A stretch of DNA of 64,000 bases from Sugiyamaella lignohabitans. Its lineage: Eukaryota > Ascomycota > Dipodascomycetes > Dipodascales > Trichomonascaceae. The notes beneath the pieces are model-generated. The model searched no databases. It saw only the letters and a list, made by a program, of their open reading frames with translations, and was not told the DNA's origin. The DNA is taken from positions 558,001-622,000 of the forward strand of contig NC_031674.1 of assembly GCF_001640025.1 (NCBI RefSeq). The letters are read 5' to 3'. The translations under genes and the position numbers were made by a program. Position 1 is the stretch's first letter; every line of letters begins with the position of its first letter. Below, piece after piece: positions 14,442-63,865 of this stretch.

Positions 14442-14503
14442 TGCCTCCGGCGGCTGGGGCTCCGCCCCAGACCCTGGCTGCTCCTCTCGCTGCGCTCGAG
14501 TCG
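14442..14503 (+). repeat. GC-rich palindromic element, left arm
   Basis: This single arm starts TGCCTCCGGCGGCTGGGG, contains hairpin 1 (CTGGGGC-TCC-GCCCCAG), and ends with the CTCTCGCTGCGCTCGAG hairpin and TCG. Its inverted partner is at 14794..14854. Confidence 0.9.
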
Positions 14504-14793
14504 GCCAGCTCATCCACGGAAAGAATGATATCGGTCAACTATGGACTACTTTTACCTCACGTCCTTTGAAGTATCTTGCGTTCATGTGGTCATACTTGCC
14601 CATCTGAACCTCAGAGATTCTTGCCAAAACAATTCTTGAGAACTTAGGGAAAAGTTCATTGAGCAGAAAACAAGATAGAACATCCCATTATTCTTTCGTG
14701 CTCTTATTCTCTGCCAGATCGTTCATTTTAACCTCATTCACCAGTTCAATATGGGTAGTCACGACCGAGAAACACGACCGGATCCAGACGTAA

Positions 14794-14854
14794 CGACTCG
14801 AGCGCAGCGAGAGGAGCCACGGGGTCTGGGGCGGAGCCCCAGCCGCCGGAGGCA
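14794..14854 (-). repeat. GC-rich palindromic element, right arm
   Basis: This is the inverted counterpart of the arm at 14442: CGACTCGAG, inner hairpin, then GGGTCTGGGGCGGAGCCCC to GGAGGCA. The 290 bp between the arms is not shared with other copies. Confidence 0.9.
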
Positions 14855-15305
14855 CAAACTCGACCACAAACCTTGAGACAGGGCCCAAATTCCAAGGCTG
14901 TGTCGTGGAAAAACGAGCAGAACGAGAACCAGTGAAAGTGTGGGGATTATATTACCCCTGAGCTATCTGCAGCCGGATATATACCTCGGACGGTTTTGGG
15001 AAGGTACCGTCGCCGATCTTCACACTGATAGCTGCGTATTCGTCGTTTGGCAGTCGTCGTATTCCTCGCGAGCGGCGTGTCCTAATTGGGACGAAATTTC
15101 CACCCCTAAATCGCCAGGCTTTAACTACAAATAGGCACGTTAATTTCAAGCATTCCTGATCCAGCAGACACGAAAGAAATCCGAACTCAACTTCGAGATA
15201 TTTTTCCATATTCCTGTCAGATTTTTTTTTGGACTACGTAGTAGCTTGGATTAATACAACTTGTTCAACAACTTGTCACAAAAATTTAAAATAACCAACA
15301 CAAAA

Positions 15306-16433
15306 ATGTCTACTGCTAAACTCGCACCCAAGGACTTTAAGGCTGATGCCGAATTTGCCAAGGCCATGCACGGATCTGGTGAACGTGGTGGTTTCACGGC
15401 AGTTCTCTCTAAGAACCGTGATGCTCAACAAGCTGCTGTTGATGGTTACTTCAAGCACTGGGATAACAAGGGTCCCAAGGAAGAGACTGAAGAGGACAAA
15501 CAAGCTCGTCTGGACGATTACTCTAGTTTAACCAAGCACTACTACAACTTGGTGACTGATTTTTACGAGTATGGATGGGGTTCTTCTTTCCACTTTTCTA
15601 GATACTACCCAGGTGAGGCTTTCAAGCAAGCTACTGCTCGTCACGAGCACTATTTGGCCTTGAAAATGGGCATCAACGAGAACATGAAGGTTCTTGATGT
15701 TGGTTGTGGTGTCGGAGGTCCCGCTAGAGAGATTCACCGTTTCACTGGTGCTGAAGTTGTTGGTTTGAATAACAATGATTATCAGATTTCTCGTGGTAAT
15801 GCTTATGCCAAGAAGTTTGGCCTTGAGAACAAGTTGTCTTTTGTCAAGGGTGATTTCATGCAAATGGATTTCCCCGACAACTCATTCGATGCTGTTTATG
15901 CTATTGAGGCCACTGTCCATGCTCCTGATTTGGCTGGTGTTTATGGTGAGATTTACCGTGTCTTGAAGCCTGGTGGAACTTTTGGTGTTTACGAGTGGGT
16001 TTTGACTGACAATTATGATGAGAGCAACGCTCGTCACCGTGAGATTGCCTACGGTATTGAGATTGGTGATGGTATTCCCAAGATGTTCAAGTCCGAGGTC
16101 GCTGAGGCTGCTTTGAAGAAGGTCGGTTTCGAGATTGTTCACCAACAAGACATGGCTGATGTCGGTGACAAGATCCCTTGGTACTATCCTTTGACTGGTG
16201 ACTGGAAATACATCCAAACCTTGGGTGATTTCTTCACCTTCTGCCGTACCTCCAAGTTTGGCCGTATGTTTACCATGGAGGCTACTGGCTTGTTAGAAAA
16301 GGTCGGTGTTGCCCCCAAGGGATCTAAAAAGGTTACCATTGCTCTCGAGGAGGCTGCTGTCCACCTGGTCAATGGTGCTAAGGAGGGTCTTTTCACTCCC
16401 ATGATGCTCTACGTCTGCAAGAAGGCAGAATAA
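15306..16433 (+). CDS. ERG6: Sterol 24-C-methyltransferase (ERG6)
   Basis: The protein has 375 residues from the ATG at 15306 (A-rich CAAAA context); an in-frame TTG at 15261 is not a credible start. Yeast Erg6 has 383. The enzyme transfers a methyl group from SAM to C-24 of zymosterol in ergosterol synthesis, at the ER and lipid droplets. The sterol-binding Region [13 protein letters not shown] lies at about 87-98. The SAM-binding [11 protein letters not shown] is at about 130-140, followed by [11 protein letters not shown] and [23 protein letters not shown] and the C-terminal sterol-methyltransferase domain follow. Codons look strongly biased to T/C endings, suggesting high expression. Confidence 0.97.
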
Positions 16434-21527: not shown

Positions 21528-21665
21528 TGCCTCCGGCGGCTGGGGCTCCGCCCCAGACCCTGGTTGCTCCTGCTTCGCAGGAGTTGCCGGCACCGTCGAC
21601 GGAACGACTCGAGCGCAGCGAGAGGAGCCACGGGGTCTGGGGCAGAGCCCCAGCCGCCGGAGGCA
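21528..21665. repeat. GC-rich palindromic element, full copy
   Basis: This 138-bp two-armed copy lies between convergent genes, 48 bp after the carrier stop and 38 bp from the FAA stop. The left arm has the CTCCTGC-TTC-GCAGGAG inner hairpin and the right arm has the CTCGAGCGCAGCGAGAG type. Confidence 0.93.
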
Positions 21666-23923: not shown

Positions 23924-24910
23924 GATGGATCTCGCAGTTGAAATAATACAATTCAATCAAAAGTAAAAACTAAAAAGTAAAAAAGTGAAAAGTGTAGTTC
24001 TAAAAAAACAAATGGCCCTGAAAAATAACAAGGATTAAACGAAAACGGCGGGTGCAATTATTGCGTCCACAGAGGGGGTTAAGCCTATTTATGGGGTAGT
24101 GGGGGAAGGTTTGAACCCCTCTTGCCATGAGGGGCACCGTGCATAAATACTATATAATGTAACTACCTACTGGTCGCCGTGCCGTTTAGACACGGCAGGC
24201 TCGGCAGTCGCAATTTTAGACCTCGACCGGTGCCGGACTGAAAGATCATCGAGTATCGTGCCAACACGATGATATTCGGTCTCGTAAATAGCACCTTAAA
24301 GATATAGGACTAGCGACTAACCCGCTCGGACGGATCAGAACCCGGGACCGTTCGTTCTGTATGGTCGGACTAATCCAGCTCGCGATGAACCGAGGGGTAG
24401 CTGATCTCGGCTGAACCCTATCCGCCAGCTCCCCAGCCGATCAAACGTTTTACCGGGCCAGAAACACCCCGCATCCCCGACCTTGCGGGGTACCGGTGCG
24501 AACTAAAACGGTCCTGACAGATAAGATAAGAACTACCCCTGAATCAGAACCCCGAACTCGGCCTTCTCACTCCCATCCGACTCTCGCCGCTTGTCCGTAG
24601 CGGGCACACTCACCGGGGGAGTCTGCCTCCGGCGGCTGGGGCTCCGCCCCAGACCCTGGTTGCTCCTGCTTCGCAGGAGATGGCAGGAGATGGCTGGCGC
24701 TGTCGACGAAACGACTCGAGCGCAGCGAGAGGAGCAACCAGGGTCTGGGGCGGAGCCCCAGCCGCCGGAGGCAGCCCCACCCCGATGAGTCCACCGACCT
24801 CCGTTCGTCAGTTGAAACAGTGGGTGGTGAGAGAAAGGGTTTTATTGAGACTATAATATAAATATAAGTTGGGTGCTGGAACGCGACAACAACACCAGGG
24901 GTCGCAAGGA
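23924..24910. other. Intergenic region FAA / HMG-box gene
   Basis: In these 987 bp, about 24110-24600 is GC-richer than its neighbours, with a short inverted repeat (ATCATCG...CGATGAT near 24246). A full palindromic element then ends 137 bp before the HMG gene stop. I see no coding exon. Confidence 0.5.
24623..24773. repeat. GC-rich palindromic element, full copy
   Basis: This 151-bp two-armed copy has, in the linker after the left inner hairpin, a duplicated GGAGATGGCA unit. It lies in the 3' flank of the HMG-box gene. Confidence 0.93.
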
Positions 24911-25554: not shown

Positions 25555-25572
25555 CCAGGGGATGCGGTGGTC

Positions 25573-25712
25573 TGCCTCCGGCGGCTGGGGCTCCGCCCCA
25601 GACCCTGGTTGCTCCTCTCGCTGCGCTCGAGTCGTTTCGTCGCCGTCCCGGACAATCTCCTGCGAAGCAGGAGCAACCAGGGTCTGGGGCGGAGCCCCAG
25701 CCGCCGGAGGCA
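25573..25712. repeat. GC-rich palindromic element, full copy
   Basis: This 140-bp copy is 57 bp downstream of the SDR stop. The left arm carries the CTCTCGCTGCGCTCGAG inner hairpin and the right arm the CTCCTGCGAAGCAGGAG type. Confidence 0.93.
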
Positions 25713-25769: not shown

Positions 25770-26735
25770 CTAGAACTTCTGTCCGACGAGTTCTTCGCTG
25801 AGGTTCCAGAGCTTGAATGCATCGTTGGGCTGTTTGGCGTGGTTTCGGCAGAAGTCTTCATGGATTTGGCAGTCGTCGAGGTACGCTCCAGATTGAGATG
25901 CAATTGCGGGGTCAAGGGCGGCAACTAAGGTCGTGGCTCCTCCTTGAGTGACGTTCTTCATTCTCACATTGGCCATGTCGTGGTAGAAATCGTCGGTTCC
26001 CCAGTAATCTTTTGGAATTCCAATATTGTTGATGTCGCCGTCAAAGTTCATGTGTCGGCCGAGGTTGGTATCCATGATGGCTCCTGGATGGACGCTGAAG
26101 GATACCAAACCTTGGCTCTTGTATCTTCGACTGAGTTCTCTGGAAAATAACACATTGGCTGTCTTGGATTGTCCGTACGCATGGAATCTTTCATATGTAG
26201 CACCGTCGGAAAAGCCAATGTCTCCAAAGATAATAGGTGCAAGACCGTGCCCCATGCTGCTCAAGTTGACTACTCTGGGGTGGGGAGAAGACAAAATCTT
26301 CTTGAGAATCAAATTGGTGAACAGGAAATGACCAAGGTGGTTGGTGCCGAACTGCAATTCAAACCCGTCCTCGGTCTTGGAGTAGGGACATGCCATGACT
26401 CCGGCGTTGTTGATGAGAACATCAATATTTTCTGAGTAGTTGTTGACCTCCTCAGCGGCTTTTCGGATAGACTTGAAAGAAGAAAGGTCTAAGATAAGGC
26501 CGCGAATGTTAGCATTGGGGTTCTCCTTCTTGATATTGCCAATGGTCTCATCCAACTTAGATTGACTACGACCAGTAACAATAACCAGCTTAGCACCATG
26601 ACCAGAGAGGACTCGGGCGTTATCAGCACCAATTCCTCCCCAAGTGGCACCAGTAACGAGAAAAACCTTGCCTTTGATTTCCGAAGAAAAGGCCTGTGCT
26701 ACTTCTTCTGAGCTAGTCTTGGAATCGAAAGTCAT
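25770..26735 (-). CDS. Short-chain dehydrogenase/reductase
   Basis: The protein has 321 residues. The Rossmann NAD(P)-binding motif reads VTGATWGGIGADNARVL near residue 27, one residue longer than the common TGxxxGIG. LDLSSFKSIRKA, VLINNAGVMACP (NNAG motif) and the catalytic YGQSKTANVLFSREL (YxxxK, about residue 188) follow, then VHPGAIMDTNL. This pattern fits the retinol-dehydrogenase/WWOX-like SDR group acting on lipophilic alcohols or carbonyls. The true substrate is unknown. No signal peptide or membrane segment is evident. A TATATAAG box lies about 130 bp upstream. Confidence 0.9.
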   Translation of the reverse strand: MTFDSKTSSEEVAQAFSSEIKGKVFLVTGATWGGIGADNARVLSGHGAKLVIVTGRSQSKLDETIGNIKKENPNANIRGLILDLSSFKSIRKAAEEVNNYSENIDVLINNAGVMACPYSKTEDGFELQFGTNHLGHFLFTNLILKKILSSPHPRVVNLSSMGHGLAPIIFGDIGFSDGATYERFHAYGQSKTANVLFSRELSRRYKSQGLVSFSVHPGAIMDTNLGRHMNFDGDINNIGIPKDYWGTDDFYHDMANVRMKNVTQGGATTLVAALDPAIASQSGAYLDDCQIHEDFCRNHAKQPNDAFKLWNLSEELVGQKF

Positions 26736-29809: not shown

Positions 29810-29944
29810 TGCCTCCGCCGGCTGGGGCCCTGCCCCAGACCCCGCTGCTCCTCTCGCTTCACTCGAGTCGTCACGTCTCGGTCCGAGTCTCCTGCGAAGC
29901 AGGAGCAACCAGGGTCTGGGGCGGAGCCCCAGCCGCCGGAGGCA
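29810..29944. repeat. GC-rich palindromic element, full copy
   Basis: This 135-bp copy lies in a divergent promoter region. The left arm has loop CCT in hairpin 1 (GGGGC-CCT-GCCCC) and a TTC loop in the inner hairpin; the right arm carries the CTCCTGCGAAGCAGGAG type. Confidence 0.93.
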
Positions 29945-45344: not shown

Positions 45345-45362
45345 TGACAACCAGGGGGTTGG

Positions 45363-45507
45363 TGCCTCCGGTGGCTGGGGCTACGTCTCAGACCCCATTA
45401 TTCGTGCTTCGCAGGAGATTTTAAGACACACTGGCACCCCACGTATCGACTCGAGCGAAGCGAGAGGAGCAGCGGGGTCTGGGGCGCAGCCCCAGCCGCC
45501 GGAGGCA
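45363..45507. repeat. GC-rich palindromic element, full copy, left arm mutated
   Basis: In this 145-bp copy the left arm has substitutions (GGTGGCTGGGGCTACGTCTCAG) that weaken hairpin 1, while the right arm is intact. It lies 11 bp downstream of the POP3 stop. Confidence 0.92.
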
Positions 45508-45518
45508 TTCCCGACCCC

Positions 45519-49383: not shown

Positions 49384-49713
49384 GTTGGCCTATCACATAC
49401 ACAAGAAAATCTCACCTCAATCAACAATTGGGTCTGATGAATCTATAATCAAATTATGATCAATAGTATCGCCAGTGATGAGTACTACATGTGAGGATTG
49501 CGGTTGAAATCTGATACGGCTTGGATGATCCACCAGAAATTACGCATATGGCCGCATTTGCATTTCCATTTAGCAAAGAGTCTGATATTGAAACTGTTCT
49601 ATTGACCAGAATATTTTTCTATTCATATCCGAATATCCAAAAGAGCATGATTTTTAGTTGTCAAATCACTAGTTGTGTTCGGAAAATGCGTTAGTAGGAA
49701 AAAAAAAATTAAA
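49384..49713. other. Spacer JAC1 promoter / 5S rRNA
   Basis: These 330 bp hold the JAC1 promoter and an A9 tract (minus-strand T tract) just after the 5S gene. Nothing else is seen. Confidence 0.5.
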
Positions 49714-49834
49714 AACTACAGCACCTTCTGTTCACGCCTGGTCTCCCACGGCATTACTGATCAAGGCTCTCAGAGGCTTGAATATGATTGATCGGACGGG
49801 AAATCTTATTTTACTCTGGATATGGCCGTAGCTG
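49714..49834 (-). rRNA. 5S ribosomal RNA, dispersed copy 2
   Basis: This gene is identical over its full length to the copy at 11311..11431 and in the same orientation. Similarity ends within a few bases on each side. A T5 and then T9 run downstream on the minus strand would terminate Pol III. Confidence 0.93.
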
Positions 49835-51662: not shown

Positions 51663-53222
51663 TTAAGCAACAGGCTTCTCGTTCTCTCTGCCAAGACCAA
51701 CGCCCAAGTCAGAGGTAACGTGAACTTCCTCACCGAAGACGGATCCGACAGTCTCAAGAGTGTGGCCCTTAGTCTCGGGGTAGAAGAAATAACAGATAAC
51801 AAGCTCAACAGCAATGACACAACACCAGACGATGTAGTACTTCCAGCCGATAGCGTCCATAGCAACGGGATTAACGAAACCGTTGTAAATAAGAGTAAGA
51901 GTGGTAACAATTTGAGTAATGTTAAGACCCTTAGCACGCAATTGATAAGGCAAGATTTCAGTGTAGTAGAGCACGGCAGGACCGTTAAGAGCAATACCAT
52001 AACAGAAGTAGTACAAGAAGATCATGGCGAGAACACCGTTGGCAAGAGACTTGTTGGCAAAGTTGGAAGGAGTACCAGCACCAGAGAGGGCAGTCCAGAT
52101 AATATAGGTAACAAGCATACCAGAGAATGAGATAAGGAACAATCTACGACGACCCAAACTCTCGACAAAGAAAGTCCAGAAGACAGCCCAGAAGAAGTTG
52201 TAAATTTGAAGACCACCGTTAAGGTAAAGTTGTTGACGTTGATCAGTGATTCCAATAGAGTCAAGAACAAGGTTAAGGTAGTAAGAAACAAGACCGTTAC
52301 CGGACATTTGCATGTTAATGGGGATCATGATGATGAGGAACAATCTGTGCTTGTTGGCCTTGGTCTTAAGGAAATCCAAGTAAGAAGTCTCATTTTGAAT
52401 CTTTTCAAGCTCAAGAGCAGAGGAAATTTCAGCCATCTCGTAGTCAACAAGCTTGGAGTTAACATCACCACCAGCGTGGTGCTTGACAAGAAGAGCTCTG
52501 GCCTCGGCATAACGGTGCTTGTCAATCAAGTAACGAGGAGACTCAGGGACCCAGTAGATCATCAAAAGTTGGATCAAAGGAAGGAAACCTTGGCAGATAC
52601 AGGGGATTCTCCAAGACCAGGTGGTGGTAACGTAAGAAGTACCCAAAGTCAACCAAGCAGCGATAATGGAACCAAGGTACCAAAGGGTGTTATAAATAGC
52701 GGTAACAACGTGTCTGTGAGCAGGATAAGAAGACTCAGCCAAAAGCAAAGGAGAACATCCGGTACAGAAAGAAGAACCAAAACCAAGAATCAATCTTCCG
52801 ACAAGGAAGACGGCGTAGTCGTTAGAAACAGCTTGAATGATAGCACCAACAATAATAAGAACACATCCACCAGCAATAGGCAGCTTTCTGCCCCATCTGT
52901 CAGTAATATAGGGAAGGATAGGCCAAGTAGCAATACCACCGAACATCATACCGTTGGCAAGACCACCCAAATGTTGACCCTTGGGGTGGTTGAAAGTATC
53001 TTGCCAAGAATCCATGGATTGAAGACCGTTCAACATGGAACCATCATAACCGTTATTGGTAGAGGAAATCATACAAAGTAACAGAAGCAAGTTCAATCTG
53101 AGCAAGTGAGGAACTCTAAGAAATGCGAATTTTCCATAATCAGGCAGAACATCCTCCATAGTCTCACCTTCAGGACGAATGTCCTCGACCATGTGGACCT
53201 CGTTCTTCTCTTCAATAGTCAT
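51663..53222 (-). CDS. Sugar transporter, MFS (lactose-permease/fungal hexose group)
   Basis: The protein has 519 residues from the ATG at 53222 (MTIEEKNEVHMVEDIRP); the frame runs 49 codons further upstream only from a non-ATG start. It has 12 predicted membrane segments. Sugar-porter signatures are STNNGYDGSMLNGLQS in TM1, YITDRWGRKLPI, GRLILGFGSSFCTGCSPLLLAE, WVPESPRYLIDKHR, VESLGRRRLF, TEILPYQLRAKG and FYPETKGHTLE. This group (Lac12/quinate-lactose-type) carries lactose, hexoses or glycosides in symport with protons. The substrate is unknown. TATATATAG lies about 115 bp upstream. Confidence 0.91.
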   Translation of the reverse strand: MTIEEKNEVHMVEDIRPEGETMEDVLPDYGKFAFLRVPHLLRLNLLLLLCMISSTNNGYDGSMLNGLQSMDSWQDTFNHPKGQHLGGLANGMMFGGIATWPILPYITDRWGRKLPIAGGCVLIIVGAIIQAVSNDYAVFLVGRLILGFGSSFCTGCSPLLLAESSYPAHRHVVTAIYNTLWYLGSIIAAWLTLGTSYVTTTWSWRIPCICQGFLPLIQLLMIYWVPESPRYLIDKHRYAEARALLVKHHAGGDVNSKLVDYEMAEISSALELEKIQNETSYLDFLKTKANKHRLFLIIMIPINMQMSGNGLVSYYLNLVLDSIGITDQRQQLYLNGGLQIYNFFWAVFWTFFVESLGRRRLFLISFSGMLVTYIIWTALSGAGTPSNFANKSLANGVLAMIFLYYFCYGIALNGPAVLYYTEILPYQLRAKGLNITQIVTTLTLIYNGFVNPVAMDAIGWKYYIVWCCVIAVELVICYFFYPETKGHTLETVGSVFGEEVHVTSDLGVGLGRENEKPVA

Positions 53223-53793
53223 GATGAATAAGGTTGGGTGTTTATCAAAATCGGTTCTAGTAAAAGATGAAGAATCGATAAGATTTGATGAAGAAGAAAT
53301 AAAAAAACCTCTTTGAAGTTGGAAAATGGACAAATATATATAGTAAGTTGAAACCCAACTAATAGCCAATGCAACTTCCTAAACGGATGAAATAATTTCC
53401 CCGGATTTCGTTGAGAGGAGATGAACGGGTAAAATCTAATAAGGACTGAGCGAGTATGCGATTCCAGATGATCCCCCGCATGTCTATGCAGGCGGCCAGT
53501 TTAAAGTCCCCACGTTCCATTTTGGGATGAGGTTTTTGTGATGCCCCACACTTTGCATTAGTGGGGGGAGGAGGGGCTAACGGGGAGAAATCCAATTTAC
53601 AACACGGCAGCGAGCGATGCAAAGTGGAGAACGTACAGAGAGGGGTAACCAATGGGTTTGAATAGTGTGTGGGTGATGATTTTAACGGCGATGACCTAGT
53701 AAGGGCTAATATGCGGTCACTTGTAGTTTATTACCCACACACGCATCAAAGGAAGGAAAAGAAAAAACGTTGGATTAATTAGTTATCGTGTAT

Positions 53794-53815
53794 ACACCCT
53801 ACACCCTACACCCTG
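53794..53815 (+). repeat. Three tandem ACACCCT units
   Basis: ACACCCT is repeated three times. It looks telomere-like or like a binding-site cluster, but it is short. Confidence 0.8.
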
Positions 53816-54555
53816 CCAGTGAGGTTTAAGTTATTTTTTTTAACATGATTGCTTTTTCTGTTTATTTTTATCATCAAACTGACCGACAGAAGTGTAAACT
53901 GATTGACTGACCGACACACACCTGCTGACTTACTGATAGAACAGCGCAACCACAGCGCCGTCCCACTCTCGCATTTTCATGTCTCACCAGCTCACTTGCT
54001 CTAACGAGGTCATTCCCCACGTCTTACATCTGTCCCCACGTTCGCCCATCCCCACGGTAGTCCCCACTTGGTCTCTTCGGCCATGATAATTTAGTTGTCT
54101 CAGTTGGTCCCCTTGGCTACAAACTTGGCTGGATGAAAGGCACCAGCGGCCACTGGCAGCAAGCTGGCTGATGTATGGGTTATGGTCTCGGCAGCAGTTT
54201 AGGGCCGGTGCATGGGGTCTGGTGCCCACCAGTGTGACCTCCTTTCTACCGTGACTAGTACTGTGGTCCTCTCTCTCTGACTGGCAGTCATTCCAAATTT
54301 GCCCCATGTGGGTGATTCCATTTTCCCAGCGATCCCTCTCAACTGCAAAAGAATCTGCACGGTTATCCACAAGCAGTAGGACAATCCGTCGATCTCCTGT
54401 ACCATGCATGCCGCTAAAGCGGCGAGTTGCGACGGCGGGACCATTTTAACCGTTTGACTAGCCGGTGCCCCGCTTTGCATCGGGGAGATACACGCACCGT
54501 CCGGCCATGCCCCACACTGGCCACTAGCGCGGGGCACAGGGGTGAGGGATCCTGG

Positions 54556-54696
54556 TGCCTCCGGCGGCTGGGGCTCTGCCCCAGACCCCGTGGCTCCTCT
54601 CGCTACGCTCGAGTCGAGCGTTGGGGGACCCCTGAAAAATACTTCTGCGAAGCAGGAGCTACGGGGTCTGGGGCAGCGCCCCAGCTGCCGGAGGCA
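54556..54696. repeat. GC-rich palindromic element, full copy
   Basis: A 141-bp copy in the gene-poor region. Left arm loop TCT, right arm loop AGC; one arm carries each type of inner hairpin. The right arm has CAGCTGCCGG in place of CAGCCGCCGG. Confidence 0.92.
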
Positions 54697-55576
54697 GGTC
54701 TAGACCCCCAGCAGCGAAAAAGAATCGGGTGCCAGTTGCCGACCGTTGGGCAGACCTGGTGCGGTCGGAAGAATCGTGCAGCGACCTAACGGGGACCAGC
54801 CATGGGCATGGAGCTGGCCCGGTATTGCTTGGCTGAGTGTGGCTAGTATAACAGCCAGCAGGGCCAAGAGAAGACAGCAAGCAACCGGTAACGGACAAAC
54901 GCACGCTAGCAGCACGAATTTATCCAGTTCTTCCGGGTCTGGATTCCAGTGACAGGACAGGTTTTTCCTGGTTTTTCACAGCGACTCAGGTCCGTGAGCC
55001 GAGTCGGGAAACAGCCTGGTCAGGATATTTAGCTCGGGAATTTTAGCCCCAGAAAAATCTATCAGCACCAGTCAGTCGAATCAGTGAAAGAAAGAAAAAC
55101 CCCTCCCGATGAGGACGGACCGCCCCAACCCACCACCGGTGTCCGCGAAGAGGGGGAGCGGGGGAGGGGATGAACGGGCGTTGAGATCGAGGCCCCACCT
55201 GCCACCAGTCACACCCACCAGTCACTAGCCACCAGTTACCAGCCATCAACCCGGTAACATTAGCCAATTCTTCCGCAGCAGTTTAGTGGGATTTAGGTTT
55301 GCTAGCTGACGGACGATTATGCCTGATAACCTGATCATCCGAGACCTCTGAGTATGCAATCGAGGCAGACAGTCAGGCCGGGATCAGCCCGCTGCTCACC
55401 ACGCGCCTTGCGCTTAATTGCTGATAGCAGCGGCGTCAAGAATGAGTCGATCTGCCCCGAGACTGGTCACGGGTCGAACCCAGGGGCTGGCAGTCTCACC
55501 ACGGGCACCACCGCCCAAACTACCCCTCCACCCCCTCCAACTTCCCCCTCCCCCTCGCAGCCACCCACTCACGTCC

Positions 55577-55637
55577 CGACTCGAACGAAGTGAGAGGAGC
55601 CACGGGGTCTGGGGCGAAGCCCCAGCCGCCGGAGGCA
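55577..55637 (-). repeat. Palindromic element, single right arm
   Basis: A lone arm: CGACTCGAACGAAGTGAGAG hairpin variant, then GGTCTGGGGC-GAA-GCCCCAG and CCGCCGGAGGCA. No left arm is present. Confidence 0.9.
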
Positions 55638-56565
55638 CAGTCCCCACCCCCCGTTCCGCCTTCCAACCCCAGACCGATAAGGGGTGGACCCCTGGTAAGT
55701 GCCGTTCAAAAAGCGAGGAAGGGGGAAACATAGTGGAGCGCGGACTAGGAAGGGATATGCGGGTGGGTAATTTAGCCGTAGAAATGTGAGACCAAGGCGG
55801 GGTGGATATGCAAGTGCCCCGCAATGTAGCTCAGGAGGTCGACGCACCCCGGGATCAGTCATGTTGGCTGGCCATTGTTCAGTTGTTGGTATGTCGCCGG
55901 ATAGAACTGGGGGTGGGTGGCCTGTCATGTATGATAGAAGTGCAGCGTTTGATAGTGGACATGCCTTTGTGTTTTTCCGGACTAGTGGGATGAGTGGTTC
56001 TGATTTTGGTGGTACTGACTATTTTTTAGTTGAACCGTTACAAGGGATCTAGGTTTGGCCGATCGGGCGGGGCGTCTCACCAGCAGTGTCTATTGTTAGC
56101 ACATACACTATGGCCAAACAACTTTCCGCGCATTTTTTTAGGGGGTTGGAGTTGCTGCTGCTGCTGCCGCTGTTGCTGTTCAGGTCGCCGTGTTTCGCCG
56201 TGGCGAGTATCTTGTCCTATACGCGACATACGTGGGGTGTGTCTTGGATTGGCGGAGACAAAAGCTTTTGTACGCTGCTGTCTGACCAGCTCTCTGACTG
56301 ATTGACCCTGACGACCCACCTGAATCGACAGCTCGCTCGCTCGCTCACTCGCCTGGTCATGGCACTTCGTCTCACGCACCTCCCCCCCTCCCCCTATCGC
56401 AGCAGCCTGTCAACCGGACTAATAGTGATAATCCCCGATAGTGGGGTCGGCCCCTCTCTCCCCCCTAGACCACCCCCCTTATCGGCCCCACACCTCCCAT
56501 ACCCCTCAATGCGTGGAAGTCCCCGAGATTTGGAGGTGCAGGTGGGTAAATAGGGGAAGAGGGTG

Positions 56566-56701
56566 TGCCTCCGGCGGCTGGGGCTTTGCCCCAGACCCCG
56601 CAGCTCCTCTCGCTGCGCTCGAGTCGACCGTCGACGGTCCCTGCCCCTCCTGAGAAGCAGGAGCAACGGGGTCTGGGGCAGCGCCCCAGCTGCCGGAGGC
56701 A
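56566..56701. repeat. GC-rich palindromic element, full copy
   Basis: A 136-bp copy; left arm loop TTT in hairpin 1, right arm loop AGC. The right inner hairpin reads CTCCTGAGAAGCAGGAG with one mismatch. Confidence 0.92.
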
Positions 56702-57263
56702 CCCCCCCTACCCCGCTATCTGCCAGTTAAACTGACATGCACTAGCGTATTGAGTGGGCTGCTGCGATGAGACATAATATTATTTCCAGGGTTCGTGAGG
56801 TTTAATCCCGGCTAATTGTCAGGCTGGGGTAAATACCCCGCCATGGAGTAGAAGCTGGTTTTTGCCGATATGACCGTTTAAACCCCGGGTGGGGATCTCG
56901 ATGCTAGTGTGATCTCAACGCCATTAAATGGTATCTGGGGCGTGGCCCCGCACTTGTTAATTGGATCTGGATCTTCTGGATCTTGTGTCGATTGTCGATA
57001 GTCGTGCCAGTCTCTGTCTGTCACACCGCCATTATATATATATAATGAAACAGATCTCTTTTTGTCCATTTAGCGGCAGTTTAGACGTATCCATGTGGGG
57101 GTCGCGGCACCGGGTGGCATTCTCCGACCGTTGGATGGTGCACCCCATGTGGGGGTGAGGACAAACATGGGGGTATTTAAACAGACCTATATCGCCAGAT
57201 GATGAGATTCTGGGTTTTTTATAGTATTTCGTAGCATTCGATAAAGACTCGGTAGCCGTTATA

Positions 57264-58211
57264 ATGACTAGTCCAAAATACAATTGTCTTACCCAGGAAC
57301 AAGTAGACCATTTCCTCGAGAAGGGGTATGTGGTGATCCATGATGCGTTCTCCAAAGAACATGCTGCCTGGATGTTGAAAGACGTCTGGGTGAGACTGGG
57401 TCTTGATCCCAATAATAGAGAGTCTTGGACTAAGCCGAGAATCCACATGCCTAAACAGCGGTCGATTCTCGTCAGCGAATTCGCTCCCAAGGCTTGGGAT
57501 GCGATTAAAGATCTGTTAGGAGGTGATGAGAATATTGCCGATGCCGGTAAATACTGGAACGACAGTTTAATCGTGAATTTCGGAAGAGACCAGTTCGAGC
57601 CACATCTTGTGTCCGGAGATCCAAAGCAACTCGATAATTGGCACACCGACGGCAACTTTTTCCGTCATTTCTTGGATTCTCCTGAACAAGCTCTGTTGGT
57701 GATCCCCATTTTCTCCGACGAGATCAAACCTAAAGGAGGTGCCACATATATTGCACCTGACTCGATTCCCCACATTGCCAAACTATTGGACGACCATCCC
57801 GAGGGTCTATTACCTGGTAAGCCTTTTAACTATCCAGAACTGGTCAACAAATGTAATGAGTTCGTCGAGGTCACCGGTAAAGTAGGCGATGTCGTTCTCA
57901 TGCACCCATTCATGATGCACTCAGCATCCCCCAACCAATTGCGCATTCCCCGATTCATTACCAACCCACCAGTGAGTCTGAAGACCCCTTTCCGTTTCGA
58001 CAGACCCCTGGATCAACTCAACCTCGTTGAACAAAAGACACTCAAGTCGCTCGGAAAGTCGTCACCATACCACTTCAAACCCACTGCCGACCGAGTCATC
58101 TTCCCCAGCGAACAGCACGACATGTGGATCCGCATGCAAAACGAAGAAAAGCAGCGACTCAAGGACTACGGCACCCTCGAATCTTTCACCGCCATTGGCG
58201 TCAAGCCCTAA
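57264..58211 (+). CDS. Phytanoyl-CoA dioxygenase (PhyH) family protein
   Basis: The protein has 315 residues. It belongs to the Fe(II)/2-oxoglutarate dioxygenases of the PhyH type, which hydroxylate small molecules or lipids. The iron ligands are visible as NWHTDGNFFRHF (His127, Asp129) and a distal histidine in LMHPFMMHSASPN (His219, or His214). The 2-oxoglutarate arginine is likely in NQLRIPRF (227 or 230). The start LTQEQVDHFLEKGYVVI is the usual PhyH opening. There is no PTS1 or PTS2, so the protein is probably cytosolic; its substrate is unknown. It is convergent with the PhzF gene across an element cluster. Confidence 0.9.
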   Translation: MTSPKYNCLTQEQVDHFLEKGYVVIHDAFSKEHAAWMLKDVWVRLGLDPNNRESWTKPRIHMPKQRSILVSEFAPKAWDAIKDLLGGDENIADAGKYWNDSLIVNFGRDQFEPHLVSGDPKQLDNWHTDGNFFRHFLDSPEQALLVIPIFSDEIKPKGGATYIAPDSIPHIAKLLDDHPEGLLPGKPFNYPELVNKCNEFVEVTGKVGDVVLMHPFMMHSASPNQLRIPRFITNPPVSLKTPFRFDRPLDQLNLVEQKTLKSLGKSSPYHFKPTADRVIFPSEQHDMWIRMQNEEKQRLKDYGTLESFTAIGVKP

Positions 58212-58744
58212 ATGTCTCCCACCCCCAAGTACATAGTCTGCAGTCAATTGATGCTGCCTCTTACACGAACCGGGCCTGCCTCCGGCGGCTGGGGCGCTGC
58301 CCCAGACCCCGTTGTGCTCGCTTCGCGAGCTTTCGCACGGTCGGAGCCGTGGTTCTGGGGAGAATATCCCTGCCACGGGAGGAGAGAACGACTCTAACGC
58401 AGCGAGAGGAGCAGTGGGGTCTGGAGCAGCGCCCCGTGTTCGAACTGGGCCTGCCTCTGGCAGTTGGGGCGCTGCCCCATACCCCGTTGTGCTCGCTTCA
58501 CGAGCTTTCGCATGGTCGGAGCCGTTGTTCTGGGGAGAATATCCCTGCCACGGGAGGAGAAAACGACTCGAGCGCAGCGAGAGGAGCAGTGGGGTCTGGG
58601 GCAACGCCCCAGCCGCCGGAGGCAGCCCCGACTCGAGCACAGCGACGGGAGCCGGAGGCAGCAGTCCATAATGTTGGGGGGCATAATCCTGGAAATGGCA
58701 TAAATAACGACGAGGTTTGGCAGAAAGGAGTCGGTGGTGTGGCA
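58212..58744. other. Convergent spacer PhyH / PhzF holding an element cluster
   Basis: These 533 bp are mostly the tandem palindromic elements at 58277..58660. Confidence 0.6.
58277..58660. repeat. Tandem pair of palindromic elements plus a third arm fragment
   Basis: Two complete elements of about 170 bp lie head to tail (58277..about 58437 and 58452..58624). Their linker sequences are nearly identical, which indicates duplication of a whole element. A further partial right arm (58628..58660) follows. Both copies use the inner hairpin GCTCGC-TTC-GCGAGC, in the second with one A (TTCACGAGC). Right arms have the CTCGAGCGCAGCGAGAG type, one mutated to CTCTAACGCAGC. Confidence 0.9.
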
Positions 58745-58867
58745 ATGTCAGACGAGAATGATAGCGGGTACGATATGTTTGAGCTGTCGTCGTGGCTCAT
58801 GGTGCTGTCGACTCTGTCGGCCATAGCGACATTCGCGATTCTTATAGTTTATCTGCCGAAACTATGA
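58745..58867 (+). CDS. Possible 40-residue single-pass membrane protein
   Basis: An ATG frame gives MSDENDSGYDMFELSSWLMV followed by a hydrophobic segment ending IVYLPKL. The acidic N-terminus with one membrane helix and a basic end is the shape of small tail-anchored subunits. It overlaps the 3' end of the PhzF gene on the other strand by 26 bp, and its upstream frame runs open through the element cluster, so chance is quite possible. I do not recognise a family. Confidence 0.25.
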   Translation: MSDENDSGYDMFELSSWLMVLSTLSAIATFAILIVYLPKL

Positions 58868-59744
58868 TGTCGCCTTTGGTCACTTTGACGGTCTTGCCAG
58901 ACAGAATGAGGGTGTTGATTTTGTCGCCATCCAGTTCAACCTCGACGCCAATGACACTTCGGCGGCCGATTTCTACACCCTGGGTGACCTGGATGTTCTG
59001 GTTCTTACCAGTCGTCAAAGCAAGGTACGCGCCAAGTGCACTGTTGGCACTTCCAGTGGCAGGGTCTTCGAACTGGTCGAGAAGAATCATTCTCGCACGC
59101 ACCGTGTGCTCGTCCTCAAGGACGTAATACAGCTGGCCAACAAAGCCCGAGTTCCATTCATGGTCTAGCAACGGAGCCAGATTCAACGGTGTTGACGACA
59201 TCTTTACTCGAGACAGCACCTCGACCGAGGGCAGACGAATCAGGGCAAAACTCAATCCCTTGACAATAGAAAAGAGAGGGGCATTGCGCTCAGCTTCAGC
59301 AATGACAGGATCACTAGAGAATCCCACTGGATCCGGCAAATCCTTGGCAGTGGCCTTGTGAAAGTGCACATTATGGGGGATATGAGCCCTCACCACGCCA
59401 TCAGACGACTTTTGGACTGGAATTGGGCCTGCTGGAGGAACGAGAGTGGCAGAAGAAGTGCCAGCAGTGACCAGGCCAATGACATGGTCTGCTGCTCCGA
59501 TAGTGGGATGTCCAGCAAACGGCAATTCAGTGTCGGGAGTGAAAATACGCACCGGGTAGGTGTTGGCAGTCGAGGGAGGGTAGATATAGATAGTTTCAGA
59601 GTAATTAAACTCACGAGCAATTTGCTGAAGGTTGTCAGTTGAGAGGTCAGTATTCTCGCCAGCCAACTCGACAATTGCCAGCTGGTTACCCAGAAACCGG
59701 GTATCGCTGAATACGTCGACAGTAGTGAATGGAGCAGTAGTCAT
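58842..59744 (-). CDS. PhzF-family isomerase-like protein (YHI9-like)
   Basis: The protein has 300 residues from the ATG at 59744 (MTTAPFTTVDVFSDTRFLGN); codons upstream are open only from a TTG. PhzF proteins have a diaminopimelate-epimerase fold and act as acid-base isomerases. The catalytic glutamate is in REFNYSETIYIYP (Glu50), with FTPDTELPFAGHPTIGAA and the second-domain LLDQFEDPATGSANSALGAYL and QGVEIGRRSVIGVEV. Yeast Yhi9 (294 aa) is the likely counterpart; its physiological substrate is unknown. A perfect TGAGTCA site lies 189 bp upstream. Confidence 0.92.
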   Translation of the reverse strand: MTTAPFTTVDVFSDTRFLGNQLAIVELAGENTDLSTDNLQQIAREFNYSETIYIYPPSTANTYPVRIFTPDTELPFAGHPTIGAADHVIGLVTAGTSSATLVPPAGPIPVQKSSDGVVRAHIPHNVHFHKATAKDLPDPVGFSSDPVIAEAERNAPLFSIVKGLSFALIRLPSVEVLSRVKMSSTPLNLAPLLDHEWNSGFVGQLYYVLEDEHTVRARMILLDQFEDPATGSANSALGAYLALTTGKNQNIQVTQGVEIGRRSVIGVEVELDGDKINTLILSGKTVKVTKGDIIVSADKL

Positions 59745-59932
59745 TATAGTATAATAGACGTCAGGAAAATTGTAATCGAATAACAAAAAACGAATGAGTA
59801 AAATCGAGCCACAACCCCTGGTTTAAATAGACTCGTGCTGCAGATATATTAAGGTTGATGAGCCATCAGCATATATGCACAACATCAAGCGAGTGATTAG
59901 GTTTGATGACAAACAATACATACCCGCCAAGC

Positions 59933-59939
59933 TGAGTCA
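59933..59939. promoter_or_regulatory. TGAGTCA (Gcn4/AP-1) site
   Basis: This perfect palindromic-type bZIP site lies between the divergent PhzF-like and HIS6 genes. HIS genes are Gcn4 targets in yeasts, so it may serve HIS6 (591 bp away), though it is nearer the PhzF gene. Function is inferred. Confidence 0.4.
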
Positions 59940-60345
59940 TATATCGCACAAGAACGATCTTTTATTACGGAAGAACCAAGATCCTTCGATAACCGAGACG
60001 AGATGTTTCCGAGGTCTAAGACCCTGTCCCACCACGTGGCTTCTTGAGCATTGAGCTTTGGGTCACCCCGCAAGTGGGGTGGTGGACTCAACAGGAAAAT
60101 TCAGGGGAACCTCAAGGGGCAATTTCAGGGGGAGATTTCCGGACGAGGGGTAGTCCCGCGGGGTCATATGGTGGGGCAGTCCAGCGGGGCCACCCTGGCC
60201 CCACCGTATCTAGACAATAATTACTCTACTCCTACGTATTTACTTACTTTACGGCTTGTAATCTCAATACCCATAAGATCTACTAACATCTCAAACCCAA
60301 TCCAGAGAACTGGACACCAACCAGCCACACAGAGATCCCAATGCT

Positions 60346-60406
60346 CGACTCGAGCGCAGCGAGAGGAGCCACGGGGTCTGGGGCGGAGCCCCAGCCGCCG
60401 GAGGCA
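60346..60406 (-). repeat. Palindromic element, single right arm
   Basis: A lone intact arm (CGACTCGAGCGCAGCGAGAG, then GGGGC-GGA-GCCCC, ending GGAGGCA) 124 bp upstream of the HIS6 start. Confidence 0.92.
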
Positions 60407-60529
60407 GAGACCCCTCTCCCCGCAGCGGGACTTATCTTATCTTTTAGGATCTGCACCAGATATATGCAGCATGAGGAGACTGAAGATAGAGTCATCAGCA
60501 GGGTGATAAAATATCAGATCCGTCGAGCC

Positions 60530-61315
60530 ATGACGAAATTCCGTGGTTGTATTGATATCCACAATGGCCAAGTCAAGCAGATTGTAGGAGGAACGCTGAC
60601 CAGTGCGGAGTCGCAGTTGAAAACCAATTTTGTGGCGACCCAGCCCGCTGAGTATTTTGGAAGATTATACAGAAAAAATGAAGTCTATGGAACACATGTA
60701 ATCAAACTCGGACCAGGATGTGATGAAGCTGCTGAGGAGGCATTGGCAGAATGGCCTGGTCAATTACAAGTTGGCGGAGGTATCACTGCCGAAAACGCTC
60801 AATCCTGGATACAAGAGAAAAAGGCGTCGAAAGTGATTGTCACGTCGTATCTATTTCCCGACGGAAAACTGTCGATACCACGACTGGAAAAACTGGTGTC
60901 ATTAGTTGGAAAAGAGCATTTGGTGATTGATCTGAGCTGTCGCAAGAAAATCGTCGACGGCGAGCCCCGGTGGATCGTGGCCATGAACCGATGGCAGACC
61001 CTGACCGACACCGAGGTCAATAAATCGACTCTGGACGAGCTATCGCGCTACTGCAGCGAGTTTCTAATCCATGCTGCTGATGTCGAAGGACTGTGTCGAG
61101 GAATAGACGAAGACCTTGTAGCAGCTCTCGGCAACTGGGTCACAATCCCCACAGTCTACGCAGGAGGAGCCAAATCGCTCAACGACCTCGAGCTGGTCGC
61201 CAAACTCAGCCACGGCAAAGTCGACCTGACATTCGGCAGCGCGCTCGACATCTTCGGCGGTGACAAAGTCGCCTTCTCCTCGTGTGTGGCCTGGAACCAG
61301 TCACAGTCACAGTAG
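60530..61315 (+). CDS. HIS6: HisA-type phosphoribosylformimino isomerase (HIS6)
   Basis: The protein has 261 residues from the ATG at 60530, identical in length to yeast His6; the longer upstream frame runs into a palindromic element and is not used. It catalyses the fourth step of histidine synthesis, an Amadori rearrangement of ProFAR to PRFAR. It is a TIM barrel with [18 protein letters not shown] at the first strand (catalytic Asp9), LQVGGGIT at the phosphate site, LVIDLSCRK in the middle and [14 protein letters not shown] near the end. A palindromic element begins one base after the stop codon. Confidence 0.96.
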
Positions 61316-61316
61316 C

Positions 61317-61454
61317 TGCCTCCGGCGGCTGGGGCTCTGCCCCAGACCCCGTAGCTCCTGCTTCGCAGGAGATTGCTGGGACCGTCGACGGAACGACTCG
61401 AGCGGAGCGAGAGGAGCAACGGGGTCTGGGGCGCAGCCCCAGCCGCCGGAGGCA
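61317..61454. repeat. GC-rich palindromic element, full copy
   Basis: A 138-bp copy fills most of the 185-bp gap between convergent HIS6 and RPB3. It starts one base after the HIS6 stop codon and would form the 3' UTR hairpin of HIS6. Left arm loop TCT with CTCCTGC hairpin; right arm loop GCA with the CTCGAGCGGAGCGAGAG hairpin. Confidence 0.93.
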
Positions 61455-61500
61455 TCGTCTCCACCACAAGCATCAACAAAAATATATATATATTACAAGA

Positions 61501-62588
61501 TTAGAACCATTGGTTGCCGTCCATGCGGGGCGAGCCGTAATTGCCCATGTTGGTTGTAGCACCGCCGTAATCGGTGGCTCCGCCGTGACGGCCGGTCGCT
61601 CCGCCTCCGAGGTCCATGCCAGGACCACGGCCATCGAGTTTGTCGACAGCAAGCACGATTTCGGCCAGTTTATTTTGCAGCACGCGAATCCCGCGCTCGA
61701 CTACTTCGTTGGGTTTCAGCGAACCCACCGTTTCAACAGTGTAGTAGAATTTATCGGGTTTGGCGGTGTAATCAAAAGGTTCGTTTTCTTTAGGTGGCTC
61801 TTCCCAGTCGGCGTTCTTGCTTTTGGGCCATTCTTCTTCAATGCTCTCTTCGTACCAATAGTCCGTGTGATGCAGTTTGTTCCATGGGTCGTATTCGAAT
61901 CCCACAGCCGCCACTGGCGACCATTTGGCATGTTCTTTGGCAATACCTTTTTTGGCTATACATTTCAGTCTCAGTTCTTGGTGCTTTCTAAGCTTACAAA
62001 TCAGTACTCCCTTTTTAGCAGGGTCACTGAACACCGGCTGGCCTATACTCTCGTCTCGGCGACCGTCTTTTGGCAAATGCACCACCAGATCTCGTGTATA
62101 TATCTCCATAGTAGCATCTCCTGTACAGCGCGCGTCCAACGATAGTTCTACTGAACAGTTGTCGCAGTACTGGTCGCATGTACAGTCCCGTGTATATTCA
62201 AGGTCGTCAACTCGAGTAGAGTCCAGTGGAATCAGTCCTAATCGATGGGCAATAAACTCGTCGGCCAGCACCGACGTGTTGATATCAATTTCTACCAGAT
62301 CAATCGCTATAGTAGGAATCTCAGCAATAATCGTTCGTCGCACCGAGTTCGCTAGTCTGTGAAAGGCGTTAGTTTCTGCGGTGGGTTCTGCCTCCGGCGG
62401 CTGGGGCTCTGCCCCAGACCCCTTGGCTCCTCTCGCTGCGCTCGAGTCGGGCGTGGGGGTGCCAGTAATTTGGGTTTTTTGGACTGGTATTCCAGAACTT
62501 ACGCTAAATCGACATCTGATACAACAAAGTCTACTTCATCTTTTTGCACTTTCCGCACCGTCACTTTTGGTCCTTGATCTTGATCCAT
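61501..62588 (-). CDS. RPB3: RNA polymerase II subunit RPB3, two exons with an element in the intron
   Basis: The exons on the minus strand are 62503..62588 and 61501..62356, giving 313 residues; yeast Rpb3 has 318. Rpb3 is the alpha-like subunit that pairs with Rpb11 to start Pol II assembly. Exon 1 ([20 protein letters not shown]...VDLA) joins in frame to [19 protein letters not shown]. Zinc cysteines are in [46 protein letters not shown] and [16 protein letters not shown] are invariant-type blocks. The C-terminal tail is Gly/Asn-rich. The 146-nt intron has GTAAGT, branch CTAAC and CACAG, and contains a single element arm. Confidence 0.95.
62389..62449 (+). repeat. Palindromic element, single arm inside the RPB3 intron
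   Basis: A lone left-type arm of 61 bp (loop TCT; CTCTCGCTGCGCTCGAG hairpin) lies between the 5' splice site and branch point of the RPB3 intron. Confidence 0.93.
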
Positions 62589-63047
62589 CTCTCTCTTGCC
62601 CTTTCTCTGATGTTCTTGTTATGTGCTATTTTTTTCTCTATTGACCTCAGAGTTTCGCCTGTTGGTTTTTGAAAAATTACCTTCCGTCTGATGGTGGAGA
62701 TGACAATTGCAAATCCTACTTCACCACTTCCATCACTTCGATTCTTGTATCTTGCGCGTCGCGGCTATCTGTTACCCGGCATGTATCCCCTCGACCAGCC
62801 CTTACAACTACCCTCTTTAATTTACCTCAAAATGTCTCTCTCTCTCATTCCATTTACTTATCTCATTACTTAAAGACAATCATAGAACCAAAACTCCTTG
62901 AAACTTTTCGAAAACTGCCATACCTTCACTCTCTAGATTCAACTTCACGTGACTTTTATAACCCACTGAGCAAGTCAAAATCACGTGATATTTAAACTAC
63001 ATCTTCGTGAAGCGGATCTTCGTCATGTTCATATTCATCATTGAGCA
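62589..63047. other. Divergent region RPB3 / DUF1770-like gene
   Basis: These 459 bp are promoters, with two CACGTGA/TCACGTG motifs (about 62945 and 62980) near the DUF1770-like gene; these resemble Cbf1 or bHLH sites. No gene is seen. Confidence 0.45.
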
Positions 63048-63455
63048 ATGTCCAGTTCTAACTCTGATTCTGATGGCCAAGACGGCCTATCGCAACAGCG
63101 ACGACCTCGATTACTGAAATCTAAACGCACCAATCCACCACTGCCCCCATTGCCAGATCTCCGGTTCGAAAACTCGTACCGCAAGTCAATTGCACCTGCC
63201 AATGGCTCCTGGTTCTGGATCTTAGTTCTTACAGTTCGTGACCAGCTGCTCTTCCCACTGGCCCAGGGTTTCCTGTGGAACGTTTTACTGGTCGGAGCAC
63301 GATCCTGGCGCATCAGTGCATCGCAAAATGGCAACAACTGGGGATGTAAGTAGACAACGACCCTGCCTTCCGGGCCCCACTAACCTTCAGTATCTGTCCG
63401 CAACTGGTGGTACAGTCTCACCAGCCAGCTGAAAGATCAGTCCTACGAATCGTAG
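63048..63455 (+). CDS. DUF1770-like small fungal membrane protein, two exons
   Basis: The exons are 63048..63345 and 63391..63455, giving 120 residues. The 45-nt intron (GTAAGT, CACTAACCTTCAG) is the shortest in the window. A polar basic N-terminus leads to PPLPPLPDLRFENSYRKSI, the motif I associate with the fungal DUF1770 family. A likely membrane-associated segment follows (SWFWILVLTVRDQLLFPLAQ...FLWNVLLVG). The exon 2 end reads LSVRNWWYSLTSQLKDQSY. Function is unknown. Family name is from memory of the motif and less sure than the gene itself. Confidence 0.75.
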
Positions 63456-63865
63456 TCCGGTTCCTGTATATATCTCACTTATTATTTATTGTTATTGATT
63501 GACCTGACCGCCTGCCTCCGGCGGCTGGGGCTCTGCCCCAGACCCCGTGGCTCCTCTCGCTGCGCTCGAGTCGGGCGTCAACGACCCCAACAAGAACTTG
63601 CAGTCCCAGTGAACTGGACCCCCCGACGCTCGACTCGAGCGCAGCGAGAGGAGCCACGGGGTCTGGGGCAGAGCCCCAGCCGCCGGAGGCAGGCGGTCAG
63701 GTCTAAGGGCAGTGGATGCGAAAATAAATAAATTGAAACAGCAGCAAAGCTGTAGCTAATATATAGACGTGACTATTTCATGGCATTAAAGGTCATAGCA
63801 TTGGCACAGGGTGCGTGCACATTCGTTAGTTTTTGAGAGACAGTGGAACAATGAGAAAGAGGGGT
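63456..63865. other. Convergent spacer DUF1770-like / RGG protein
   Basis: These 410 bp contain a full palindromic element with extended flanks and the 3' flanks of both genes. Confidence 0.55.
63513..63691. repeat. GC-rich palindromic element with palindromic flanks
   Basis: In this 179-bp copy both arms carry the same CTCTCGCTGCGCTCGAG-type hairpin and matching loops (TCT/AGA). The immediate flanks GACCTGACCGCC and GGCGGTCAGGTC are perfect complements, so the palindrome extends 12 bp beyond the usual ends on each side. Confidence 0.93.

Follow-up and report, generated by a model that had tools for sequence, protein, structure and literature searches.

A short G+C-rich palindromic repeat recurs along a 64,000-nucleotide stretch of the yeast Sugiyamaella lignohabitans (contig C2, C2:558001-622000; this whole stretch is referred to below as the window, and positions given without a contig are counted from its first base) and throughout the rest of the genome. 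In our judgement it is probably a non-coding, non-autonomous and structure-dependent mobile repeat that lives much as the bacterial REPINs do, its unit being an inverted doublet of ~138 bp. The original prediction, made from the letters of the window, had proposed a non-autonomous mobile or structural element, and a discrete unit, thousands of dispersed copies, sister copies in unrelated flanks and the lack of a target duplication all speak for that view. It had missed two properties, however: at least one stem of the repeat evolves as a stem, and the units are sharply concentrated in the 100-200 bp that follow stop codons.

In the commonest form of the unit, an arm designated A is followed by a linker of ~22 bp and by an arm designated B, and the whole is bounded by TGCC…GGCA. 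From outside to inside, an arm consists of TGCCTCCGGCGG, a 7-bp stem with a 3-base loop (hairpin 1), ACCC, a short variable stretch and a second, inner stem, again of 7 bp with a 3-base loop. It had been claimed that every arm has this terminal word, hairpin 1, ACCC and an inner hairpin; this holds for nearly all arms, but the inner hairpin comes in several types (A, CTCCTGCTTCGCAGGAG; B, CTCTCGCTNCGCTCGAG; C, GCTCGCTTCGCGAGC; and others), and the arm at 40534 has a second type of stem. The B inner stem holds two adjacent mismatches, GA/GA on one strand. In a single arm at C1:45072 (L013) the inner A hairpin is inverted, with the loop GAA instead of TTC, as if the small hairpin had been flipped.

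The core CTGGGGC-nnn-GCCCCAG-ACCC (CTGGGGCNNNGCCCCAGACCC) has 5,965 exact matches (2,952 + 3,013) in the genome of 15,932,016 bases, and the terminal 18-mer TGCCTCCGGCGGCTGGGG has 5,378 (2,695 + 2,683). Since the reversed patterns give 0 matches in both cases, a chance origin is excluded. Copies are present on all four contigs (2.3-5.9 Mb), and if each exact core is counted as an arm of ~69 bp, the family is estimated to occupy ~0.41 Mb, which corresponds to ~2.6% of the genome. The second stem type, CCGGGC-nnn-GCCCGG, contributes 95 exact copies in which the pairing is kept. In loci L033 (C4:787301-788301) and L034, arms of this second type are grouped on both sides of other sequence in the order ++ … --, and in L035 and L036 in the order + … --; the arm plus linker is tandemly repeated there, and it looks as if each side had collected its own arms.

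For close reading we used a sample of 304 kb, comprising the window, C1:1-50000, C1:160001-310000 and 20 kb each of C3 and C4, which is biased in that 150 of the 304 kb (C1:160-310 kb) were picked after a first list of matches had shown a high density there. When arms were defined as matches with at most 7 errors in 33, and inverted pairs as those spanning less than 700 bp, the sample held 156 arms, 108 of them in 54 inverted pairs and 48 single. A search with an arm profile added three matches at E <=0.01 (3e-8, 0.009 and 0.009); it returned 157 matches of at least 15 bits, and nothing of 10 bits or more in the reversed control. Because only 15 of the 157 score below 40 bits, few copies are truly decayed and these form a thin tail, which corrects the earlier description of decayed copies. 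The density is uneven, with no clear copy at window positions 1-14441 but, in C1:196-262 kb, an arm every 1-2 kb or so, the loops of hairpin 1 there being mostly TCC.

The arms are arranged in a preferred manner. A gap between cores of less than 100 bp (69-96) was found in 38 of the 60 +/- neighbours in the 304 kb, versus one of 56 -/+, two of 19 ++ and four of 16 -- neighbours, and A with B is the commonest pairing (31 of the 49 two-armed copies shorter than 320 bp). When the typical element at 61317-61454 was used as a query, dozens of end-to-end matches were found elsewhere, most of which stop within a few bases of TGCC or GGCA, while a few continue for up to 40 bp. Forty additional places were fetched from the genome search; 39 of them parse as two-armed (L195 does not), 38 as A-B and one as B-B (L175), and 36 measure 136-141 bp. 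As 38 of these 39 had been chosen for their likeness to 61317, the fetched places were kept out of the comparison of arms with linkers, and were included in the counts of flank motifs, core variation, linker sharing and target duplications. Outside TGCC there is a G-rich stretch of ~13 bp whose sequence is not conserved, the last two places being mostly T and C in the 304 kb; GGGG occurs within 18 bp of the end in 47 left and 45 right flanks of 84, and CCCC in 6 and 2. This stretch may go back to the choice of target or to slippage, or it may belong to the unit itself. A single strand of 61317-61454 is predicted to fold as one long hairpin (-66.4 kcal/mol as DNA versus -31.7 when shuffled, z -11.8), as is its other DNA strand (-63.7, z -10.5), and the RNA fold reaches -115.9 kcal/mol (z -12.0).

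Sister copies carry the case for mobility. The two 140-bp copies at C1:3232878 and C1:3233509 lie 631 bp apart and differ at 1 base, whereas their 30-bp flanks are identical at only 9 and 11 bases; since their orientation is opposite, this is not a tandem duplicate. Among the 78 parsable A-B copies (of 91), 12 have one of four linker sequences in common, some of them across chromosomes, and in 14 sister pairs the identity of the flanks is 0.293, versus 0.308 in random pairs. Shared linkers and sister copies in unrelated flanks are, as far as sequence comparison can tell, the marks of a unit that has been copied to new places; it is from these sister copies, and not from presence or absence between genomes, that we infer mobility.

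Insertion appears to leave no duplication of the target. Exact direct repeats of 2, 3, 4, 5, 6 and 8 bp flank 6, 3, 1, 0, 0 and 0 of the 91 copies, where shuffling gives 6.5, 2.6, 1.1, 0.2, 0.0 and 0.0, in agreement with the earlier remark that no target-site duplication was obvious, and an offset scan of 47 copies yielded nothing convincing (best z 2.97 among 2,646 tests). Inverted flanks, on the other hand, are in slight excess: in 7 of the 91 copies at least 7 of the 8 bases next to the element are complementary to those on its other side (shuffle mean 1.1, maximum 5 in 2,000), and a 9-of-12 version of the test gave 4 versus 1.5 expected (p 0.055). Such flanks could arise if some copies occupy the middle of an older palindrome, or if fold-back copying has lengthened the inverted repeat. 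The longest such flanking repeats measure 12 bp (at 63513-63691) and 10 bp (at C1:228570 and C1:212832), and the joined site there would be a palindrome centred on the point of insertion. A genome search with window positions 44001-64000 as a 20-kb query, in which 39 of 2,965 candidate places were scored, brought up copies of the elements and 5S genes, and no empty paralogous site was among them.

The arms are conserved in the manner of structures. Across 227 arms (150 local ones and 78 from fetched copies, minus one with more than 6 errors), the 30 non-loop sites of the core vary in 0-3% of arms (8% at the first base) and the three loop sites in 9, 14 and 31%. Read on the strand that ends at the 3' terminus of the element, the loop of hairpin 1 is GNA in 157 of the 227, and GNA also prevails in the inner loops; among DNA mini-hairpins d(GCGNAGC) stands out for its stability, a likeness that we take as a lead only. 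At one position of the A stem, to which the genome-wide count of paired changes is confined, the common 17-mer has 1,839 copies, the two one-sided changes have 8 and 12, and the double change that restores pairing has 36, in 25 separate places: multiplication is seen for the form in which pairing is restored, and not for those in which it is broken. A neighbour of the same variant lies within 10 kb of 17 of the 36 double-change copies and of none of the 20 one-sided ones, where 3.0 of the former would be expected from the average density of A arms and 7.0 from the 95th percentile of that density. Moreover, in the 33 A-B copies of the 304 kb, the arms are alike at 0.964 over the 30 non-loop core sites, versus 0.533 for the linkers (0.423 when shuffled), a pattern that fits selection on the arms, be it for copying or for a function, better than it fits simple decay after a burst.

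The position of the units relative to genes is equally distinctive. Open reading frames (ORFs) were called mechanically from ATG to stop, with at least 150 aa and without introns, so that some genic and intergenic labels are wrong, and a unit between convergent genes was scored for both of them. In successive 50-bp bins of free space behind the stops of these ORFs the density falls from 3.4 through 2.9, 1.5 and 1.1 units per kb to 0.4-0.6 beyond 200 bp, whereas it is 0.2-0.6 per kb in every bin in front of start codons; the first 100 bp after stops are thus 6-8 times as densely occupied as the space beyond 200 bp. ORFs of at least 300 aa give 3.5 and 3.6 per kb in the first two bins and 0.3-0.5 beyond 200 bp. 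In many of 36 near-stop cases the order is stop, AT-rich stretch, short G+C-richer stretch and element, and 3' regions free of the element are AT-rich, with GGGG in 3 of 53. Few units are internal to an ORF of at least 150 aa (11 of 98), and 7 of these 11 are in ORFs shorter than 230 aa that are possibly spurious.

These observations can be accommodated in the following model. The unit would spread as a whole between TGCC and GGCA, without a target duplication, both locally and between chromosomes, as the sister copies suggest. What is recognised would be the folded arm, either in single-stranded DNA or as a cruciform; this is suggested because the stems are conserved and co-varying while the loops and linkers are variable. 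New copies would be placed, or would survive, mainly just behind the AT-rich 3' untranslated region, targeting and survival being both compatible with this distribution. The likeliest copier would be a host enzyme, or some other enzyme, that acts on hairpins in trans, probably where DNA is single-stranded at the ends of transcription or during replication.

The closest known counterparts are the REPINs or BIMEs, bacterial doublets of REP sequences that are moved by RAYT transposases, as described in PMC3116915. The two share inverted doublets at a preferred spacing, arms more conserved than a variable spacer and a doublet that folds as a whole into a long single-stranded hairpin, and also compensatory changes, a largely extragenic location, clusters and tandem arrays, and the co-existence of lone arms. 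The differences are that the yeast family resides in eukaryotic nuclear chromosomes, that its arm of ~60 bp has two hairpins where a REPIN has a short REP, and that it numbers 5,965 exact cores in 15.9 Mb as compared with 1,422 REPs in the genome treated in PMC3116915. It is, furthermore, strongly placed behind stops, and its lone arms are not clearly more decayed. The tetranucleotide GT[AG]G given for REPs in PMC6006769 is absent 5' of the foot of hairpin 1, where the bases are GCGG (GGGT on the other strand). Because neither this tetranucleotide nor a Y1 enzyme was found, we do not file the family as a REPIN. A bolder proposition, which we hold only tentatively and consider possible rather than probable, is that it is a eukaryotic counterpart of REPINs: several thousand nuclear hairpin doublets, copied as single-stranded structures by an undiscovered enzyme in trans and placed where transcription ends, with some two in five genes in the sampled regions by now having such a doublet in the 250 bp that follow them.

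Several observations weigh against a REPIN-like mobile repeat. First, a profile of the Y1 transposases (RAYT, HUH; PF01797) found no match in the genome, with a control that was positive in 5 of 14 genomes, and neither did a MULE profile, with a control positive in 3 of 14. No transposase was found in the four families searched, but the Helitron (PF14214) and hAT profiles were as silent in the control genomes as in this one, with zero matches, and are uninformative, and Tc1/pogo-type DDE enzymes, piggyBac, Crypton and reverse transcriptase were not searched. Second, the 36 double-change copies are copies and not independent events, and in hairpin 1 of the main family the 227 arms contain no compensated change at all (35 changes are one-sided and the single two-sided one does not pair), a pairing variant of this hairpin appearing only as the separate stem type CCGGGC/GCCCGG. 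Third, if only doublets move, lone arms should not be about as conserved as paired ones; doublet arms carry 0.56 errors (n 94) versus 1.15 in lone arms (n 48; p 0.07), and the latter value falls to 0.61 (n 44; p 0.38) without the 7-error arms. Fourth, some sharing of linkers is to be expected, since similarity to one query was the ground on which 38 of the 78 elements had been fetched. Finally, the clustering of hairpin-1 loop variants along C1 (p 0.004) is gone when one dense 60-kb block is left out (p 0.57), and no insertion was seen opposite an empty orthologous site.

Spread without any dedicated enzyme is an alternative that we consider unlikely. Hairpin or cruciform DNA would then be copied, mostly locally, by template switching, break repair and ectopic gene conversion. 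The local clustering of the double-change variant, the tandem duplications of arm plus linker, and the failure of four family profiles, two of them with no working control, to find a transposase are all what such a process would leave behind; so is the excess of complementary flanks, as fold-back copying or insertion at the centre of a palindrome would produce them. However, sharp and constant edges, and like units on different chromosomes in unrelated flanks, are hard to obtain from error-prone repair alone, and gene conversion should homogenise linkers at least as well as arms, yet their likeness is 53% versus 96%.

It is also conceivable, though in our estimation quite unlikely, that the repeat is in essence a host element of gene ends, that is, a two-way hairpin terminator or a fail-safe cleavage site for an RNase III of the Rnt1/Pac1 type, kept by selection. 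A possible route for such a function is offered by fission yeast, in which co-transcriptional cleavage of a hairpin by the RNase III Pac1 is reported to trigger termination (PMC8421224). This idea draws on the stability of the RNA fold, on the units that stand just behind an AT-rich 3' stretch and sometimes fill most of a convergent gap, and on a count in which, among 90 ORFs of 200 aa or more, 37 are followed by a unit no farther than 250 bp from the stop. In addition, lone arms near stops run in the same direction, TGCC first, in 10 of 12 cases, and changes are fewer in arms that lie no more than 350 bp from a stop than in those farther away (0.37, n 60, versus 0.76, n 91; p 0.019, uncorrected for multiple tests), which is a hint of function. 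Against it, many units are far from stops, 53 of the 90 genes have no unit, two-armed copies near stops have no preferred direction (AB 9, BA 8), and half of the sampled DNA belongs to the dense region.

Miniature inverted-repeat transposable elements (MITEs) are short, non-coding and of high copy number, with terminal inverted repeats. The yeast family has all of these traits, and its terminal inverted repeats are long and its edges sharp, so that it might consist of relics of a conventional terminal-inverted-repeat DNA transposon that were moved by a DDE transposase. We regard this as distinctly improbable, as membership founders on the target-site duplication, of which the 91 copies show no sign. 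The G+C-rich composition, the two hairpins in each arm (four within the element) and the lack of a candidate transposase also set the family apart, given that MULE is missing with a working control, that the hAT result is uninformative and that other DDE superfamilies were not searched. Contamination or an assembly artefact is extremely improbable, for nothing was found in its favour and copies lie on all four contigs, between ordinary yeast genes and in different flanks.

Other systems resemble the family in part. The GC clusters of yeast mitochondria, as presented in PMC4478555, are likewise short GC-rich palindromes that spread between genes, with loops that change faster than stems and units that merge; they belong to mtDNA, though, the best studied is 42 nt long, and a putative AG target duplication has been described for them, whereas the yeast family is nuclear, has a unit of ~138 bp and leaves none. 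Membership in the GC clusters was rejected on account of the contigs of 2.3-5.9 Mb and the lack of a 2-bp duplication. Elements of the IS200/IS605 and Helitron types share with it subterminal hairpins that are recognised as structures and the lack of a target-site duplication, but differ in the asymmetry of their ends, only one side having a target motif, while both ends of the yeast family are alike (in part PMC6006769). As to the HUH proteins behind such elements, none was found in the yeast genome, where Y1 was tested and the Helitron search was uninformative.

In prokaryote genomes the core CTGGGGC-nnn-GCCCCAG-ACCC was found in at least 118 stretches, many of them from Streptomyces, as a pattern without the terminal TGCCTCCGGCGG; by our estimate, for which no control was computed, chance in G+C-rich genomes together with convergence may suffice to account for them. 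In the Streptomyces stretches L116, L093, L062 and L066 the hairpin-1 core recurs 2-4 times within 8 kb, which suggests a separate bacterial hairpin repeat of similar sequence. Viral contigs contained 0 exact arms. A literature search of titles and the openings of abstracts retrieved no description of such a family for a yeast nuclear genome; the S. lignohabitans genome paper (Bellasio et al. 2016), which lay outside that search, may mention repeats.

Within the window, where about twelve two-armed copies of 135-179 bp had been reported, we find 13 compact ones in that range and a damaged fourteenth. Ten are A-B elements. On the plus strand these are 21528-21665 (138 bp, between convergent genes whose stops are 48 and 38 bp away, so that it fills 138 of 224 bp), 24624-24773 (150 bp), 35297-35435 (139 bp, 61 bp behind the stop of 35497-37758), 45363-45507 (145 bp, left arm partly decayed with 3 errors), 46127-46266 (140 bp, right arm partly decayed with 4 errors) and the typical 138-bp element at 61317-61454, which starts 2 bp beyond the final base of the plus-strand ORF 60341-61315 and has its other end 46 bp away from the stop of the minus-strand gene 61501-62109. 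On the minus strand they are 25573-25712 (140 bp, 57 bp behind the stop of a minus-strand dehydrogenase-like gene, 25770-26735), 29810-29944 (135 bp), 54556-54696 (141 bp) and 56566-56701 (136 bp, with the B arm first on the plus strand). Three further compact elements are built differently: 30939-31106 (168 bp) has C-like inner hairpins and lies 57 bp behind the stop of 31164-32843; 58452-58624 (173 bp) has a C-like left arm with 4 errors and a B right arm; and 63513-63691 (179 bp), the copy within the 12-bp perfect inverted repeat, has two B arms. The damaged element, 58277-58435, adjoins that at 58452, combines a C-type left arm with a damaged B-like right arm (58389-58435) and lies 65 bp behind the stop of 57264-58211.

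The further count of about ten single or decayed copies agrees with what we found, namely five lone arms, two weak remnants and one widely spaced inverted pair of arms. The pair consists of B arms spanning 413 bp (14442-14854), the first of which is 38 bp behind the stop of a CDC50-like gene (13177-14403). One of the lone arms, with its core at 40534-40565 (minus strand), is of the second stem type; the other single cores lie at 44142-44174 (A arm, plus strand, 63 bp behind the stop of a haspin-kinase-like gene at 40692-44078), 55605-55637 (B-like, minus), 60374-60406 (B, minus) and 62389-62421 (B, plus), and the remnants are a decayed arm at 33165-33197 (plus, 7 differences in 33) and a weak fragment at 48316-48341 (plus, profile E 0.009).

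The surroundings of these copies are those of an ordinary yeast chromosome. The 20 window ORFs of at least 200 aa look like common yeast genes wherever a family could be assigned (ERG6, CDC50, a mitochondrial carrier, haspin kinase, casein kinase II beta, sugar transporters and others), and of the 19 that were scanned against Pfam one had no match and none matched a transposase family. The RNA genes are two for tRNA and two for 5S rRNA, the latter being dispersed genes on the minus strand (11310-11430 and 49713-49833) with near-identical copies on other contigs.

Small hairpin repeats of high copy number are known from bacteria and from organelles, while here they are nuclear and occupy ~2.6% of a 16-Mb yeast genome. 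The family is remarkable for how numerous it is, for residing in a eukaryotic nucleus and for favouring gene ends. With it, the questions of how hairpin DNA multiplies without target duplications, and of whether hairpin repeats become signals of gene ends, can be put to a yeast whose genome is fully sequenced.

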